From Oscillospiraceae bacterium (GTDB taxonomy: Bacteria > Bacillota > Clostridia > Oscillospirales > CAG-272): a DNA stretch of 32,091 nucleotides. The notes under the pieces are model-generated. The model did not search any database. It worked only from the letters and a program-made list of their open reading frames with translations, and was not told where the DNA came from. Position numbers and translations under genes: made by a program. Of the stretch, positions 2,787 through 31,460 are shown piece by piece. The number at the start of each line of letters is the position of its first letter. Position 1 is the stretch's first letter. The DNA lies in assembly GCA_015065075.1 (NCBI GenBank), contig SVRA01000012.1, forward strand, positions 1-32,091, read 5' to 3'.

Positions 2787-4013
2787 TTAACTATTAAGAA
2801 CAACTTTCATGTAAGACTTTTTACCCTTACGGAGAAGCTTGCCTTCGGCGAGGTCCTCCTTGGTGTAGTAGGTCTTGATGTCGCTGATCTTTTCGCCGTC
2901 GACGGAGACGCCGCCCTGCTGCACAGCCTGACGAGCCTCGGACTTGGACTTAACGAGCCCGCTTCTTACAAGCATTGTGAGGATGTCGGTCTTGCCCTCG
3001 ATGTAGAAGTCCTCGTCGAGCATTTCCGCGGTAGGAGCATCGGCTTCGCCGCCTGCACCGAAGAGTGCCTTTGCCTGAGCCTGTGCTTTGTTTGCCTCGT
3101 CGTCGCCGTGAACGAGCTTTGTGAGCTCGTATGCGAGGATCTCCTTTGCGGTGTTGAGCTGGCTACCCTCCCAAGAGTCCATCTCGTTGATCTGCTCGAT
3201 AGGCAGGAAGGTCAACATTCTGATGCACTTGAGGACGTCGGCATCGGCTACGTTTCTCCAGTACTGGTAGAAGTCGTAGGGGGTGGTCTTGTTGGGGTCG
3301 AGCCACACTGCACCCGATGCGGTCTTACCCATCTTCTTGCCCTCGGAGTTGAGAAGCAGGGTGATGGTCATAGCGTGAGCGTCCTTGCCAAGCTTTCTTC
3401 TGATAAGCTCTGTTCCGCCAAGCATATTGGACCACTGGTCGTCGCCGCCAAACTGCATATTACAGCCGTAGGTCTTGAACAGGTGGTAGAAGTCGTAGGA
3501 CTGCATTATCATATAATTGAATTCGAGGAACGAAAGTCCCTTTTCCATTCTCTGCTTATAGCATTCCGCGGTCAGCATTCTGTTGACGGAGAAGCACGCG
3601 CCGACCTCGCGGAGAACCTCGACGTAATTGAGGTCAAGCAGCCAATCGGCGTTGTTGACCATTATTGCCTTGCCCTCGCCGAAATCGATGAATCTTTCCA
3701 TCTGCTTTCTGAAGCAGTCGCAGTTGTGCGCGATGGTCTCGGTCGTCATCATCTGACGCATATCGGTTCTGCCTGAGGGGTCTCCGACCATTGCCGTACC
3801 GCCGCCGATCAGGACTACGGGCTTATTTCCTGCCATCTGAAGTCTCTTCATAAGGCAGAGTGCCATAAAGTGTCCTACGTGCAGCGAGTCTGCCGTGGGG
3901 TCAAAACCGATGTAGAAGGTCGCTTTGCCTTCGTTGATCATATTTTTGATCTCTTCTTCATTCGTTACCTGCGCGATAAGTCCGCGGGCAACAAGTTCTT
4001 CGTAAATTTTCAT
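2787..4013 (-). CDS. tyrS: Tyrosyl-tRNA synthetase
   Basis: This class I synthetase activates tyrosine with ATP and charges tRNA-Tyr. Visible signatures are the HIGH-type HVGH in the N-terminal Rossmann fold, GGDDQWSN in the active site, KMGKTASG as the KMSKS loop, and a C-terminal S4 RNA-binding domain (VRSGLVKSKSEARQAVQQGG). The ORF track extends to 4082, but the real start is ATG 4013 (MKIYEELVARG): AAGGAAAA precedes it and the extension would read through the leader. The protein has 408 residues, normal for the family. Expression is controlled by a T-box leader behind a consensus promoter, so it should rise when tRNA-Tyr is uncharged. The gene is monocistronic. Confidence 0.96.
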   Translation of the reverse strand: MKIYEELVARGLIAQVTNEEEIKNMINEGKATFYIGFDPTADSLHVGHFMALCLMKRLQMAGNKPVVLIGGGTAMVGDPSGRTDMRQMMTTETIAHNCDCFRKQMERFIDFGEGKAIMVNNADWLLDLNYVEVLREVGACFSVNRMLTAECYKQRMEKGLSFLEFNYMIMQSYDFYHLFKTYGCNMQFGGDDQWSNMLGGTELIRRKLGKDAHAMTITLLLNSEGKKMGKTASGAVWLDPNKTTPYDFYQYWRNVADADVLKCIRMLTFLPIEQINEMDSWEGSQLNTAKEILAYELTKLVHGDDEANKAQAQAKALFGAGGEADAPTAEMLDEDFYIEGKTDILTMLVRSGLVKSKSEARQAVQQGGVSVDGEKISDIKTYYTKEDLAEGKLLRKGKKSYMKVVLNS

Positions 4014-4235
4014 GGTTAGTTTTTCCTTTCTTTTTTCTTCACACCTTTCTTGAAAGAAAGGTGTGCCAAAGAACTTCCACAAGGATAGTCGGTGATGTAG
4101 ACGTTTTACGATATAAAACGGTGGGGTATCCTTAAGTTTAGCTCTTGGCTTTATTTTTACTTAAATTTTTAACAAACAACGTTCACGCAGTGAACATATC
4201 ACGCTTCGCTTGCGTGGCATCTCTCGCTCTGCGAG
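4014..4235 (-). other. Long distal leader between T-box terminator and tyrS
   Basis: These 222 bases of tyrS 5' UTR lie after the T-box terminator. Next to the terminator are three small perfect hairpins: GCGAGA/TCTCGC (4222-4236), CACGC/GCGTG (4200-4216) and GTTCAC/GTGAAC (4181-4195). Nearer tyrS is a 12-base-arm palindrome, CACACCTTTCTT-GA-AAGAAAGGTGTG (4040-4065). No coding frame is convincing. The hairpins may be repeat elements or may affect read-through mRNA stability. Confidence 0.6.
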
Positions 4236-4506
4236 AAAAAAAGCGTCCGCGGGCAATAAGCCCAAGGACGCGTTATGCGTGGTACCACCTTAATTCACCC
4301 ACAAGTCGCCTTATGAGTCTTAAAACTCCCAAAAGAGTCGTTTGATATAACGGTCAATCCCGCCGCCGCCTACACATTCCAACGGAACTTCGGGACGGTA
4401 CTCGCGAAGGTATTCGAAAACGGCTCTCACGCGCCTCTCATCAGCCGGCTGCTTTCTGTCTGACAGTCTCGTTTTCTACTTGTTTCGGTCACTGTATTTC
4501 TTATGA
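4236..4506 (-). promoter_or_regulatory. T-box riboswitch leader of tyrS
   Basis: Read on the minus strand, the conserved T-box AAGGTGGTACCACGC (4277-4292) is followed by the terminator GCGTCC-TTGGGC-TTATT-GCCCGC-GGACGC and seven T (4236-4271). The 5' part (about 4340-4500) is the expected position of stem I. Two UAC triplets (near 4397-4403 and 4409-4415) are candidate tyrosine specifier codons; I did not resolve which one is used. Uncharged tRNA-Tyr would pair with the specifier and the T-box bulge and stabilise the antiterminator. Confidence 0.92.
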
Positions 4507-19591: not shown

Positions 19592-21064
19592 TTATTTGAA
19601 TTTGCGTTTTTGGATTGCAAAGCATACTGATAGCCCAAGCGCGATCAGACTCGGCAAGATGCTGACAGCCACGCTTGATCTGCAACCGAAGGCGTTTGGC
19701 TTTTCGGAATATACCGCAGTATATACTATGCTTTCGGTTATTTTCGCGGGGATCTCATCGACTCCCCAGCCCTCAAAGCACTCGTCGTCGACCTCGGGCG
19801 GCTCGACAAGGTCTCCGTAATATCCTTTGATCTCCTTGAGCACTTTTCCGTCGGAATCCGCAAAGGTGACGGTATATAAGGTCTCATCCCACTGGGCAAC
19901 GAGGATTGTTTTTTTATCAATATCGCTAAGCGTATCGCCCGATTGCAAAAGCTCGCCCGTTTCGATCACCTTCCAACCGACGAAGCCCGAGGTCTCTCTT
20001 GTGATCTCGGGATCGGGAAGGGCGATCGTGGTAGACGGGAGCACGGCAAATCTCGTGACATATTCATTTTCCGCATCGTGAATGAGCTCTATCGCCTCGG
20101 TTGCTCCGTCAGATGATATCTGGACGGCCTTTTTTGCCGCTTTCGCATAGCCCCCGTAAGTTTTCCCGTCTTTTTGATAGCTGATTTTAAAGCAATCGCC
20201 GTATCTCTCTTTTACCGTAAGAAGCTCGTAAGCGCCCAGGACGTCGGAGTTTTCACTCATTTTTTCATCTGAATAGACGTTTATTTCGCCTTTTGAGATA
20301 TACAGTCCCGAGGACATTTCCTCACCTGAATGATCCACCTTCAAAGCCGTTTCGTCTGTCTTGTATTTTGGCGATGCGTACCCAACTATGTATTTGTCCG
20401 ACAATTTATACGAGCGAAGGCAAACGTAATGTCCTGCGGTCGACAGAGCGCTGCCGCTTGATGCGTTTCCTTCGATCGTATACACGCGGTTTTCGTCCGA
20501 ATAAAGAACCATACCTATATGAGTGGAGGTCACCGAGCTGCCCGCGTCCTTGAAAAAGATAAGGTCTGCTGTTTTGGGAGCATAGTTTTTCTTTTCAACG
20601 TATATTCCCATATCCTTGCAATCCGCAAGCCAGCGGCGGCAGCTAACCTCGGATCCCGATGCGGTCTTTTCTACTCTCGATTGGCGTAAGCACCAATTCA
20701 CAAACGAGGCGCACCATGCGTATCCGTAGCTCAGTCCATTACCCTCTTGGTTGTCGAGCTTGCCGTAAAGGACGTTGTATTCGACAAAATTTTTCGTGCC
20801 CGAGGAGTTCATTCCGTCAAGGTCAGAATCTCCGTCTCCCTCGTGATATCCGAGCTGTGAGAGCGCTATTGCGATAACGTCGGTTGCCTGATCGCCCGTC
20901 AGCTCTATTCGCCCAAGATGCTCGTAATATTTACTGCTTTTGTATTCCTCGGACACCTGATAGGTCTCGGTCACTGCTGAGGTCTCAAGTGTGCACAGCC
21001 CCGATGTCGTAGTGATCATCAAAGCAAAAAGGACAAGGCACGCTAATGCTTTTTTTATATTCAT
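19592..21064 (-). CDS. Secreted, membrane-anchored CHAP-domain peptidoglycan amidase
   Basis: The 490 residues start with a signal peptide (about 1-30). A CHAP/NlpC-type domain follows (about 60-235) with the likely triad Cys118 (YAWCASFVNWC), His182 (THIGMVLYS) and Asn200 (IEGN). An SH3-like segment (about 250-315) and two InlB-type B-repeats (about 325-395 and 395-450, with TVTFADSDGKVLKE and FEGWG) come next. A C-terminal hydrophobic stretch (about 465-484) and basic tail QKRKFK suggest a membrane anchor; there is no LPXTG motif. It probably cleaves peptidoglycan peptides or amides at the cell surface. GGAG lies upstream of the ATG behind a consensus promoter. Confidence 0.87.
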   Translation of the reverse strand: MNIKKALACLVLFALMITTTSGLCTLETSAVTETYQVSEEYKSSKYYEHLGRIELTGDQATDVIAIALSQLGYHEGDGDSDLDGMNSSGTKNFVEYNVLYGKLDNQEGNGLSYGYAWCASFVNWCLRQSRVEKTASGSEVSCRRWLADCKDMGIYVEKKNYAPKTADLIFFKDAGSSVTSTHIGMVLYSDENRVYTIEGNASSGSALSTAGHYVCLRSYKLSDKYIVGYASPKYKTDETALKVDHSGEEMSSGLYISKGEINVYSDEKMSENSDVLGAYELLTVKERYGDCFKISYQKDGKTYGGYAKAAKKAVQISSDGATEAIELIHDAENEYVTRFAVLPSTTIALPDPEITRETSGFVGWKVIETGELLQSGDTLSDIDKKTILVAQWDETLYTVTFADSDGKVLKEIKGYYGDLVEPPEVDDECFEGWGVDEIPAKITESIVYTAVYSEKPNAFGCRSSVAVSILPSLIALGLSVCFAIQKRKFK

Positions 21065-21110: not shown

Positions 21111-21139
21111 ATTATATCATTTCTGCTTTTCTTTGTCAA
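21111..21139 (-). promoter_or_regulatory. Sigma-A promoter of the CHAP gene
   Basis: On the minus strand TTGACA (21134-21139), 17 bp and TATAAT (21111-21116), a perfect consensus about 47 bases before the start codon. Confidence 0.9.
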
Positions 21140-21242
21140 GTTGCTTGATTTGAGGACAGGCGTTGAAATTAATCGTTTTTGATATAAGATTTGTGGGCGA
21201 ATGTTAAAGATTGAAAGTCGTCTAAAATCAACCAAAGGTTTA

Positions 21243-21271
21243 TTGACAAATTGCAGTCTCGGTATTATAAT
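21243..21271 (+). promoter_or_regulatory. Consensus sigma-A promoter of the structured RNA and XRE gene
   Basis: TTGACA (21243-21248), 17 bp and TATAAT (21266-21271), a perfect match. The start would lie near 21278. Confidence 0.92.
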
Positions 21272-21277
21272 AGGATT

Positions 21278-21490
21278 ATCGGTCTGTCGGCATAGACCCC
21301 GACGGAGCGAAATTTTATGAAAAGGAGGCGACTTTAATGATTTCTACACGCTATGGATACTGCAAACTCGCCTCGGAGTCGGTCTAAGGCAAAAAAAGGA
21401 TGCTGACCTTGGTTTGCCGAGATTCTTTGCGGCGATTTATCCCAAAAACCGAGCGTGCTTATTGCAGAGGTGCGCTCGAGCGAATTGCAG
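21278..21490 (+). ncRNA. Putative structured RNA or leader upstream of an XRE regulator
   Basis: About 210 bases between a perfect promoter and the XRE ribosome binding site fold well by eye. Helices are AGACC(CC)GAC (21294-21303) with GTCGGTCT (21378-21385); GAGGCGA (21325-21331) with TCGCCTC (21368-21374); GGCAAA (21388-21393) with TTTGCC (21413-21418), plus inner AAGG/CCTT; and CGAGCGTGC (21450-21458) with GTGCGCTCG (21470-21478). CTGCAA (21360-21365) can pair with TTGCAG in the last hairpin loop (21462-21467), forming a pseudoknot, or with a second TTGCAG at 21485-21490. The 5' end offers competing pairs GGTCT/AGACC and GTCGG/CCGAC. A 16-codon ORF (21337-21387) behind AAAGGAGG is included in it. 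Size and host recall the clostridial raiA-motif RNA class, but this was not checked. Confidence 0.6.
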
Positions 21491-21504
21491 CAAGGAGTTA
21501 GCAG

Positions 21505-21806: not shown

Positions 21807-21840
21807 AGTCTCACCTATAACGGTGGGGCTTTTTTTCTTT
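21807..21840 (+). terminator. Rho-independent terminator of the XRE unit
   Basis: AGTCTCACC and GGTGGGGCT pair (9 bp with two G-U) around TATAAC, followed by TTTTTTTCTTT. Confidence 0.85.
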
Positions 21841-29198: not shown

Positions 29199-31460
29199 AT
29201 GAAAATCAACCGAATTATTGCTGTGCTTCTCGTTTTGGTCTTGATCGGCTCCGTGGTACTGACGGCTTGCGAGGGCTCATCCAAAAAAGAAGAAAACCAG
29301 TCTACCGAAACAACAACCAACGAAGAGGCCTCTAAAGGTGAAGAAAGCTCATCCAAGATTGAGGAAAGTTCTTCAAAAAGCGAAGAAAGTTCTTCAAAGA
29401 GCGAGGAAAGTTCTTCAAAGAGCGAGGAAAGCTCGTCCAACAGTGAGGACACCACATCCGAAAGAGAGGAAGAGACAACGGTGATAATCGACATTATGAT
29501 AGGCGAGACGCTCGACGCCGAGCCCGCGGCAGACTTCTCGGTATCGAAAGTATTCTCGGACTACATGGTCGTTCAGAGAGGCGAGCACATTCGCGTTTGG
29601 GGCTTTGCTCCCGAAAGCGAGAACGGCAAGAAGGTATCGGGTGAATTCAAGGGTATGTTTGCCGAGGCAATTGTCGAAAACGGCGAATGGTGCATTACCT
29701 TCGGCGCAAGACTTGAAGCCGACACTGTCGGAGCAGAGATGTCCATATATGCAGGTGATAATAAGACCGTCACGTTCAAGGACGTGCTTGTCGGCGACGT
29801 TTATCTCGTTCTCGGTCAGTCCAACGCGGCGCTCGCACTCAGCGAGTCGGTCAAGGGCGGAAACACTGTCGACATCGACGAAAACTCAATAATCAGACTT
29901 AACTATCTCAACGGCAGCGGTGGCACATACGCCGAAAAGGGAACAGATTACGTTTACAAGGATCTCGAAAACACGACCTTGTGGACAAAGACCACTCAAG
30001 CTTATGCACTCCGTTTCTCCGGTATCGGATACCATTTCGCACAGGAAATGGTTGCAAGATCGGGCAATTCTGTGCCCGTAGGTCTTATGGAGGTTGCTTA
30101 CGGTGGCGCACCCTTGGCGTCCTTCCTGCCTAACGATCTCGCAGAGCTTTACGATTCTGATTACTATAGTGCGGACACGGGCAAATATATTTCTATGAGA
30201 GATACCACGCATTTTGGAAGATATCTCTACAATTGCTATCTCGCTCCCGCGAGCAGATACGCGGTTGCGGGTGTGCTCTGGTATCAGGGAGAGAGCGATA
30301 ATCCTCTGAATTTCGCACAGGTATACGGTGACGAGTTCGGTGATTTCGTTGAGCATCTCAGATCTACTCACAACGTGATCAACAAGGAATTCCCCGTATT
30401 CGTCGTTGAATTCCCCACACAGTATCAAAAACCCGCGGATTACAGCGGAAGCGACCCTTGGCACTATATGGAGGTTGGCACTATCCGTACCTTTATGGGT
30501 CTTCTTCCCACGGTTATTGACGGCTGCTATCTTTCGGCGTCCAGCGATCTGTGGACCGACACAAGCTTCCCCAACAGTCTACACCCAAATTGCAAGCCCG
30601 GTCAGGCAAAGAGACTTGCCGATATTGCGGAGTTTGTGATATTCGGAAAAGGAACGCTTGATGATGCTATGGGTCCGATCTTCAGCAGCGCTGCGCTGAG
30701 CGAGGACAAGAAGACAATTACCGTTACCTTTACGAATGTGGGAGAGGGTCTTACCACCGCCGACGGCGGAGCTGCCGTAAAGGGTATTTGCGGATTTTCG
30801 GAAAAGACATTTGGTCTTGCCACGCCCCTGACTCCTGTGAGCGCAGAGATAACCGCAAAGGACCAGATCACCGTGACCTTTGACGAGGCGGTCAAGGCGG
30901 TAGCATACAACTACAACACCACCGACGTTTACGGCGAGACCCTGAACCTTTGCAACAGCGCGAAGATTCCTGCGCTGGCATTTATCACTCCTTATGAGGA
31001 TATGGATCTCAGTGGATTTTCGGAGGATGAGTTCGTTTCAAGAAAGAACAAGAACCTCCGCTTGCAAGGAGCTTTCATTGACAGACTGATATCAGACGGA
31101 GCAGATATATTTACTCCCGGCAGCGTTGAGCCGGGTCTCAACGCAGGTGGAAACAAGATAGAGATAACAAAGGGATCTTCGTCTCTCAGCTGCACCGGCT
31201 GGATTGGCTACGGATATCCTACATTGGCGTTTGGCTATTCACTCGACGGCAGCGATGCTATTCTGAAAATCGCTCCGACCGCACCCGAGGCGGCGGTTCT
31301 TACGGCGGGCGGTGAGCACGCGGTGAGATTTGCAATCAACATTGACGTAAGCGATCTTGAGGTCGGTGAGCATACCGTTTCGTTCCTCGCGTTTGTTGAC
31401 GCTAATGACGGAACTGTAGCAAAGCTTCTTTCCTTTACCGTTGTCGTAGTTGAAAAGTAA
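29199..31460 (+). CDS. Lipoprotein with sialate-O-acetylesterase-like SGNH domain
   Basis: The 753 residues begin with a lipoprotein signal peptide and lipobox LTAC (Cys24). A Ser/Glu/Lys stalk follows (about 25-95), built from five heptads of the type EESSSKS. The SGNH/SASA esterase domain (about 110-480) has the nucleophile in LGQSN (Ser208), the block GVLWYQGESDN (about 359-368) and the catalytic His in SLHPNCKPG (about 462), as in carbohydrate 9-O-acetylesterases. A beta-rich C-terminal part (about 490-753) is unassigned. It probably deacetylates host or plant glycans outside the cell. AAGGAG precedes the ATG. It is monocistronic, closed by a 16-bp terminator. Confidence 0.87.
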   Translation: MKINRIIAVLLVLVLIGSVVLTACEGSSKKEENQSTETTTNEEASKGEESSSKIEESSSKSEESSSKSEESSSKSEESSSNSEDTTSEREEETTVIIDIMIGETLDAEPAADFSVSKVFSDYMVVQRGEHIRVWGFAPESENGKKVSGEFKGMFAEAIVENGEWCITFGARLEADTVGAEMSIYAGDNKTVTFKDVLVGDVYLVLGQSNAALALSESVKGGNTVDIDENSIIRLNYLNGSGGTYAEKGTDYVYKDLENTTLWTKTTQAYALRFSGIGYHFAQEMVARSGNSVPVGLMEVAYGGAPLASFLPNDLAELYDSDYYSADTGKYISMRDTTHFGRYLYNCYLAPASRYAVAGVLWYQGESDNPLNFAQVYGDEFGDFVEHLRSTHNVINKEFPVFVVEFPTQYQKPADYSGSDPWHYMEVGTIRTFMGLLPTVIDGCYLSASSDLWTDTSFPNSLHPNCKPGQAKRLADIAEFVIFGKGTLDDAMGPIFSSAALSEDKKTITVTFTNVGEGLTTADGGAAVKGICGFSEKTFGLATPLTPVSAEITAKDQITVTFDEAVKAVAYNYNTTDVYGETLNLCNSAKIPALAFITPYEDMDLSGFSEDEFVSRKNKNLRLQGAFIDRLISDGADIFTPGSVEPGLNAGGNKIEITKGSSSLSCTGWIGYGYPTLAFGYSLDGSDAILKIAPTAPEAAVLTAGGEHAVRFAINIDVSDLEVGEHTVSFLAFVDANDGTVAKLLSFTVVVVEK
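29340..29444 (+). repeat. Five 21-bp tandem repeats in the lipoprotein stalk
   Basis: Five in-frame units of the form GAGGAAAGTTCTTCAAAGAG plus C encode EESSSKS-type heptads. Units 2 to 4 are nearly identical at DNA level, and units 1 and 5 are more diverged. Such repeats can change copy number by slippage without a frameshift. Confidence 0.9.

Follow-up and report, generated by a model that had tools for sequence, protein, structure and literature searches.

Translational attenuation of the ermC type relies on a leader peptide and on mutually exclusive hairpins that mask a downstream Shine–Dalgarno sequence. A 2017 survey of bacterial intergenic RNAs reportedly described the HTH-XRE RNA motif, a candidate cis-regulatory RNA of Clostridia that lies upstream of XRE genes. 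Structured RNAs predicted in human microbiomes, with candidates of 27–219 bp, have HTH-XRE genes among their commonest neighbours (PMC8040213). The raiA RNA has an enclosing P1 helix, helices P1–P8 and two pseudoknots, pk-1 and pk-2, that both meet in one pk-loop (PMC11751092; PMC11706538).

The window analysed here, a stretch of 32,091 nucleotides from an Oscillospiraceae bacterium, contains a leader of about 227 nt (21278–21504, + strand) between a promoter and the gene for an 80-aa XRE regulator (Table 1). Scanning the leader with cmscan against all 4227 Rfam 15 families gave no match at E ≤ 5. The original prediction had likened it in size and host to the clostridial raiA-motif RNA without confirming membership; raiA RNA (RF03072) was ruled out by the lack of a covariance-model match, of an enclosing P1 and of a shared pk-loop, and the RF03072 model found no match in the 12 genomes of the genus, a scan in which no positive control gave a signal. 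A T-box identity (RF00230) was likewise rejected for the leader. The sole T-box in the window, which is also its only Rfam match, lies at 4261–4501 on the − strand, scores above the gathering score and precedes what appears to be a tyrosyl-tRNA synthetase ORF (2787–4082, −). Elsewhere in the window, a dispersed palindromic repeat, REP- or MITE-like with the core GGGAAACTTTTTGAAAAAAGTTTCCC and GC-rich arms, occurs in three copies (3–45, 2245–2299 and 2732–2789), and 21-nt tandem repeats at 29331–29477 code for a linker rich in Ser and Glu within a protein that looks secreted.

Table 1 Features of the XRE gene and its leader, in order of position (the pairing partners of P2 and P3 are given together)
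Feature	Position	Strand	Remarks
Inverted repeat AACCAAAGGTT, probable XRE autoregulatory operator	21230–21240	+	Abuts −35 box; in 8/8 leader loci
Promoter TTGACA-17-TATAAT	21243–21271	+	−35, 21243–21248; −10, 21266–21271; 17-nt spacer; 12/12 consensus, sigma-A type
Hairpin P1	21279–21310	+	Loop holds AUAGACC; in 7/8 homologues, absent in G011
PK2 5′ half, AGACC in P1 loop	21294–21298	+	Invariant in 7/7 sequences having P1 while stem diverges
Shine–Dalgarno of uORF, AGGAGGCG	21323–21330	+	Strong; 8/8
uORF, MISTRYGYCKLASESV	21337–21387	+	16 codons plus stop
PK1 5′ half, CUGCAAA	21360–21366	+	Invariant 8/8
P2	21367–21372 with 21431–21436	+	5′ strand CUCGCC, 3′ strand GGCGAU; homologue alignment
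P3	21376–21380 with 21421–21425	+	Double changes at 2/5 pairs (MAFFT alignment)
PK2 3′ half, GGUCU bulge between P3 and P4	21381–21385	+	Kept in 7/8
Hairpin P4	21388–21418	+	Double changes at 4/6 pairs; 0/2000 shuffles on cells paired
(C/U)UCUUUGC, complementary to XRE Shine–Dalgarno	21423–21430	+	Paired at 8/8 positions in 7 sequences and at 6/8 in G011
Hairpin P5	21450–21478	+	Compensatory double changes at 9/9 pairs; 98.5% of cells paired
PK1 3′ half, UUGCAG in P5 loop	21462–21467	+	Invariant 8/8 though P5 stem diverges completely
Shine–Dalgarno of XRE gene, GCAAGGAG	21490–21497	+	
XRE/HTH_3 regulator, 80 aa	21505–21747	+	PF01381, E = 9.7e-17; 61.2 bits against a gathering score of 23
Intrinsic terminator 3′ of XRE gene	21807–21838	+	

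Promoter, operator and XRE gene

The perfect consensus promoter of the original prediction was confirmed, and its hexamers are retained in nearly all homologues. The regulator belongs to the XRE (HTH_3) family, scoring above the PF01381 gathering score. Leader and gene share this single promoter, and no strong terminator was seen between them. In one species (L011 / G006:C7) the XRE start codon is AAG rather than ATG, with leader and Shine–Dalgarno sequence intact; this could be a decayed start, an alternative start or an assembly error. A second promoter with 12/12 consensus positions (21111–21139, −) diverges from that of the leader and drives a gene for a CHAP-domain protein (19592–21064, −). 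The CHAP-domain gene adjoins the XRE locus in several species, and this divergent neighbour may also be controlled by the XRE protein.

The probable operator, which overlaps the promoter region and was absent from the original prediction, keeps its symmetry in G002 as AACTnnnAGTT. The general form AACYnnnRGTT (CAACCnnnGGTTG) occurs at most 250 nt upstream of 43 of 78 more distant XRE homologues, compared with 1.2 expected in shuffles. Because of this enrichment and the presence of AACCAAAGGTT at all leader loci, the XRE protein is very probably a regulator of its own promoter, and CAACCnnnGGTTG is an apparent family-wide operator of related XRE genes. Upstream of such genes (L013–L090), the palindromes often occur as two copies about 22 nt apart. 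When we searched for a wider XRE regulon with the operator plus the −35 box, sites with 0 mismatches were leaders only, and sites with a single mismatch occurred elsewhere.

The leader occurs in one genus

The leader is strictly linked in cis to its XRE gene. By DNA and protein searches it is present in 8 of the 12 species of this uncultured gut genus of Clostridia, each time (8/8) immediately 5′ of the tiny XRE ortholog, and in the draft assemblies, which all genomes here are, of the remaining four species both leader and ortholog are missing; the best XRE matches in those four are domains of much longer ORFs (269–374 aa). Two covariance models each gave one strong match per leader-bearing genome and no credible match elsewhere, whether in around 380 further genomes of the family or in 391 genomes sampled from the class. 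Weak model matches outside the genus proved on inspection to be unrelated coding sequence or terminator-like and to be without the motif. The leader had no match in phage and plasmid collections, and its core had no exact copy in viral contigs; a search across the order with the 13-mer CTGCAAANTCGCC was uninformative, the query being too short. Near other XRE relatives, the only Rfam families found were T-boxes and tRNAs. Six species have the locus flanked on one side by a pair of genes for glycerol-3-phosphate dehydrogenase and the CHAP protein and on the other by a trkA/trkH cluster, and because of this common neighbourhood it looks vertically inherited.

Covariation supports a folded leader

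Comparative analysis establishes the leader as a conserved folded RNA with helices P1–P5 and two long-range loop pairings. The layout, in 5′ to 3′ order, is the P1 hairpin, a short upstream ORF (uORF), P2 enclosing P3 and P4, and then P5, with one pseudoknot (PK1) reaching to the P5 loop and the other (PK2) to the P1 loop. The original prediction of a structured RNA with at least four helices is borne out both by folding, in which the 227-nt leader is more stable than its shuffles (z −2.4), and by the homologues. In a hand alignment of the eight sequences, four of which are near-identical so that the effective depth is about five, the 38 pairs are 91.8% paired and contain 32 double-change cells, compared with 10.4 when shuffled (0/2000); the helices covary strongly. 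Sliding the structure along this alignment as a control dropped pairing to 34–47%. As the hand alignment had been fitted to the structure, we added a count for the P2–P4 core on an independent MAFFT alignment, which gave 11 double-change cells against 4.4 (0/500), with 0–4 in slid controls. P1 and P5 rest on the hand alignment because a single MAFFT run of all homologues failed at P5, and P2 taken alone is nearly invariant, offering complementarity rather than covariation. The linker between P2 and P5 tolerates insertions, since G003 (L136) carries an extra hairpin there (ATTGCA/TGCAAT). The GTCGG/CCGAC pairing originally proposed at the 5′ end is real and forms the inner part of P1.

PK1 pairs CUGCAA (21360–21365) with UUGCAG in the P5 loop. 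The original prediction had matched CTGCAA to two TTGCAG segments; the hairpin-loop copy is the one that is kept, and the second, near 21484–21490, is not conserved. A proposed GGTCT/AGACC pairing fared similarly: AGACC has a retained partner in the downstream GGTCT that forms PK2, and the upstream GGTCT (21281–21285) reads GGACT, GGCAA or GTTTG in relatives. Both halves of PK2 are lost together in G011. Both pseudoknots are nearly invariant and so yield no covariation; they are instead supported by complementarity, retention and joint loss.

A uORF and two predicted exclusive folds

The uORF, which had gone unremarked in the original prediction, starts with ATG, GTG or TTG 7–8 nt after GGAGG in 8/8 homologues, is 16–26 codons long, and stops −1 to +11 nt from the end of GGUCU, again in 8/8. 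Its span covers one strand each of P2, P3, PK1 and PK2. Most uORFs encode (G)YCKLASE or a near variant, but G003 uses a well-spaced uORF in another frame (MFFIDFRILQTRLGAGL) with the same end point. As the frame differs in G003 while start spacing and end are the same, what appears to be conserved is the translated span rather than the peptide, and the shared YCKLASE apparently follows from the bases that make up PK1, P2, P3 and PK2. The early uORF codons are not conserved between species, which makes amino-acid-specific stalling in the uORF unlikely.

The sequences permit two predicted folds that exclude each other. Fold A consists of P2 and P3, with or without P4, together with PK1 and PK2. 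In fold B, GAGGCG (21325–21330), part of the uORF Shine–Dalgarno sequence, is paired with CGCCUC (21369–21374), and GCAAGGAG with CUCUUUGC. The two compete because the anti-Shine–Dalgarno segment of the uORF overlaps the 5′ strand of P2 and CUCUUUGC overlaps the 3′ strand of P3. Complementarity of GAGGCG and CGCCUC is 6/6 in all eight sequences, and both helices between Shine–Dalgarno and anti-Shine–Dalgarno segments are nearly invariant and consequently show no covariation. With pseudoknot energies left out, the nested minimum is fold B in five of seven species, by 6–13 kcal/mol, and fold A in G003, with the two within 1 kcal/mol in G002. On this folding model the RNA would look like a bistable leader. 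The switchable 5′ leader with a pseudoknot in the original prediction thus gains support from covariation and from the exclusive alternative folds; masking of both Shine–Dalgarno sites had not been part of it.

How these folds might act together can be outlined as follows. In fold B both Shine–Dalgarno sites would be masked and XRE translation would be off. In fold A, CGCC would pair with GGCG and the CUC of the anti-Shine–Dalgarno segment would be held in P3, leaving the XRE site free and translation on. While a ribosome is at the uORF start or still within the early codons, it would cover the first Shine–Dalgarno sequence and release CGCCUC, favouring fold A and the on state. If ribosomes travelled as far as the uORF stop, P2 and P3 would be melted, so that CUCUUUGC could mask the XRE site and turn translation off; masking of the first Shine–Dalgarno sequence would likewise make CUCUUUGC available against the XRE site. 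In this way the regulator would receive a signal of the initiation or elongation state of ribosomes through the leader, as a second layer of control, restricted to one genus, in addition to the XRE protein's autoregulation at the DNA level. Switch direction and signal are both put forward on these grounds. Of all the steps, direction is the one to treat with most caution, as UUUGC might still pair with GCAAG within fold A, masking the XRE site.

Discussion

We consider it somewhat probable that the element acts in cis as a structured 5′ leader, through which translation of an autoregulated XRE regulator is coupled to that of a short uORF. We take this to be the best reading because of the covariation, the uORF placement in 8/8 homologues, the alternative minima, the co-occurrence with the XRE gene (8/8), the single promoter without a strong terminator and the operator enrichment. 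More tentatively, and with rather less than even confidence, we propose a new family of RNAs whose double-pseudoknot fold competes with peptide-independent uORF translation for the same bases, such that ribosome traffic, rather than a peptide or metabolite, would set the level of an autoregulated XRE protein.

A ligand-binding riboswitch would assign the same features differently: fold A would be the aptamer, with its two pseudoknots and the invariant internal-loop bases UCG and UUUGC, and a small molecule would free or mask the XRE Shine–Dalgarno sequence, the uORF being incidental or a second input. The compact pseudoknotted layout, the highly conserved core and the exclusive folds, with the Shine–Dalgarno sequence as expression platform, are consistent with such a switch; we nevertheless regard it as unlikely, because the leader is found before one regulator gene in one genus and never before a transport or metabolic gene, because pairing accounts for most of the conservation of the core, and because the uORF is conserved in 8/8. 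The original prediction had also offered a stand-alone ncRNA processed from the XRE transcript, which as an abundant species might behave like raiA RNA. A size of about 200 nt, a strong promoter, a complex fold and the lack of a detectable raiA RNA in the genus would all suit that proposal, for which we found no positive evidence: all eight copies end at the XRE Shine–Dalgarno sequence without a strong terminator between leader and gene, the pairings incorporate both ribosome-binding sites, and Rfam gives no raiA match, so that we judge it improbable.

Inheritance of leader and XRE gene as a unit could also reflect autogenous control of XRE translation, in which the folded RNA would be a binding site for the XRE protein, or else for a ribosome-associated or metabolic protein. 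Given that HTH_3/XRE proteins are DNA binders and that a good DNA operator is present, this seems a shade less probable than the stand-alone RNA. Least credible of all is that the conserved element mainly encodes a functional small peptide (YCKLASE...). The recurrence of that peptide in most uORFs fits the idea, but G003 keeps the nucleotides while using its other frame at optimal spacing, the codons that are conserved coincide exactly with the bases of PK1, P2, P3 and PK2, and helices outside the uORF covary; we rejected a conserved peptide as the main constraint on account of the G003 frame.

If coupling to uORF translation is correct, ribosome status would be tied to a transcription factor by way of a uORF that can drift freely in both frame and peptide. 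The leader adds a covariation-supported RNA family without a match in Rfam 15, tied to a family of small XRE regulators with the probable operator CAACCnnnGGTTG.

Among described RNAs, the HTH-XRE motif is reportedly similar in being a clostridial RNA upstream of XRE genes; our leader matches no family of Rfam 15, a library in which this motif may or may not be represented. The human-microbiome candidates are alike in being structured RNAs near an XRE gene, and relatives of the leader may be among uncurated candidates of that type (PMC8040213). The raiA, or ModT, RNA (RF03072) shares a length of about 210 nt, occurrence in Clostridia, two pseudoknots and a consensus promoter, whereas the XRE element is the leader of an mRNA, contains a uORF and lacks an enclosing stem. 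With ermC-type attenuators the leader shares a short uORF with a strong Shine–Dalgarno sequence, exclusive folds and a masked downstream Shine–Dalgarno site. A translatable uORF with its own Shine–Dalgarno sequence precedes the regulated gene in 8/8 homologues, and exclusive folds, one masking the downstream site, are found at the sequence level, with complementarity to the XRE site in 7/8 and minima that alternate across species. Unlike those attenuators, it has two conserved pseudoknots and an XRE target, and its early codons and frame are not conserved, leaving no evident drug- or peptide-specific stalling. By this analogy, leader-peptide translational attenuators would be the closest functional match for the XRE leader, whose architecture with two pseudoknots is unusual and whose uORF tolerates a change of frame.
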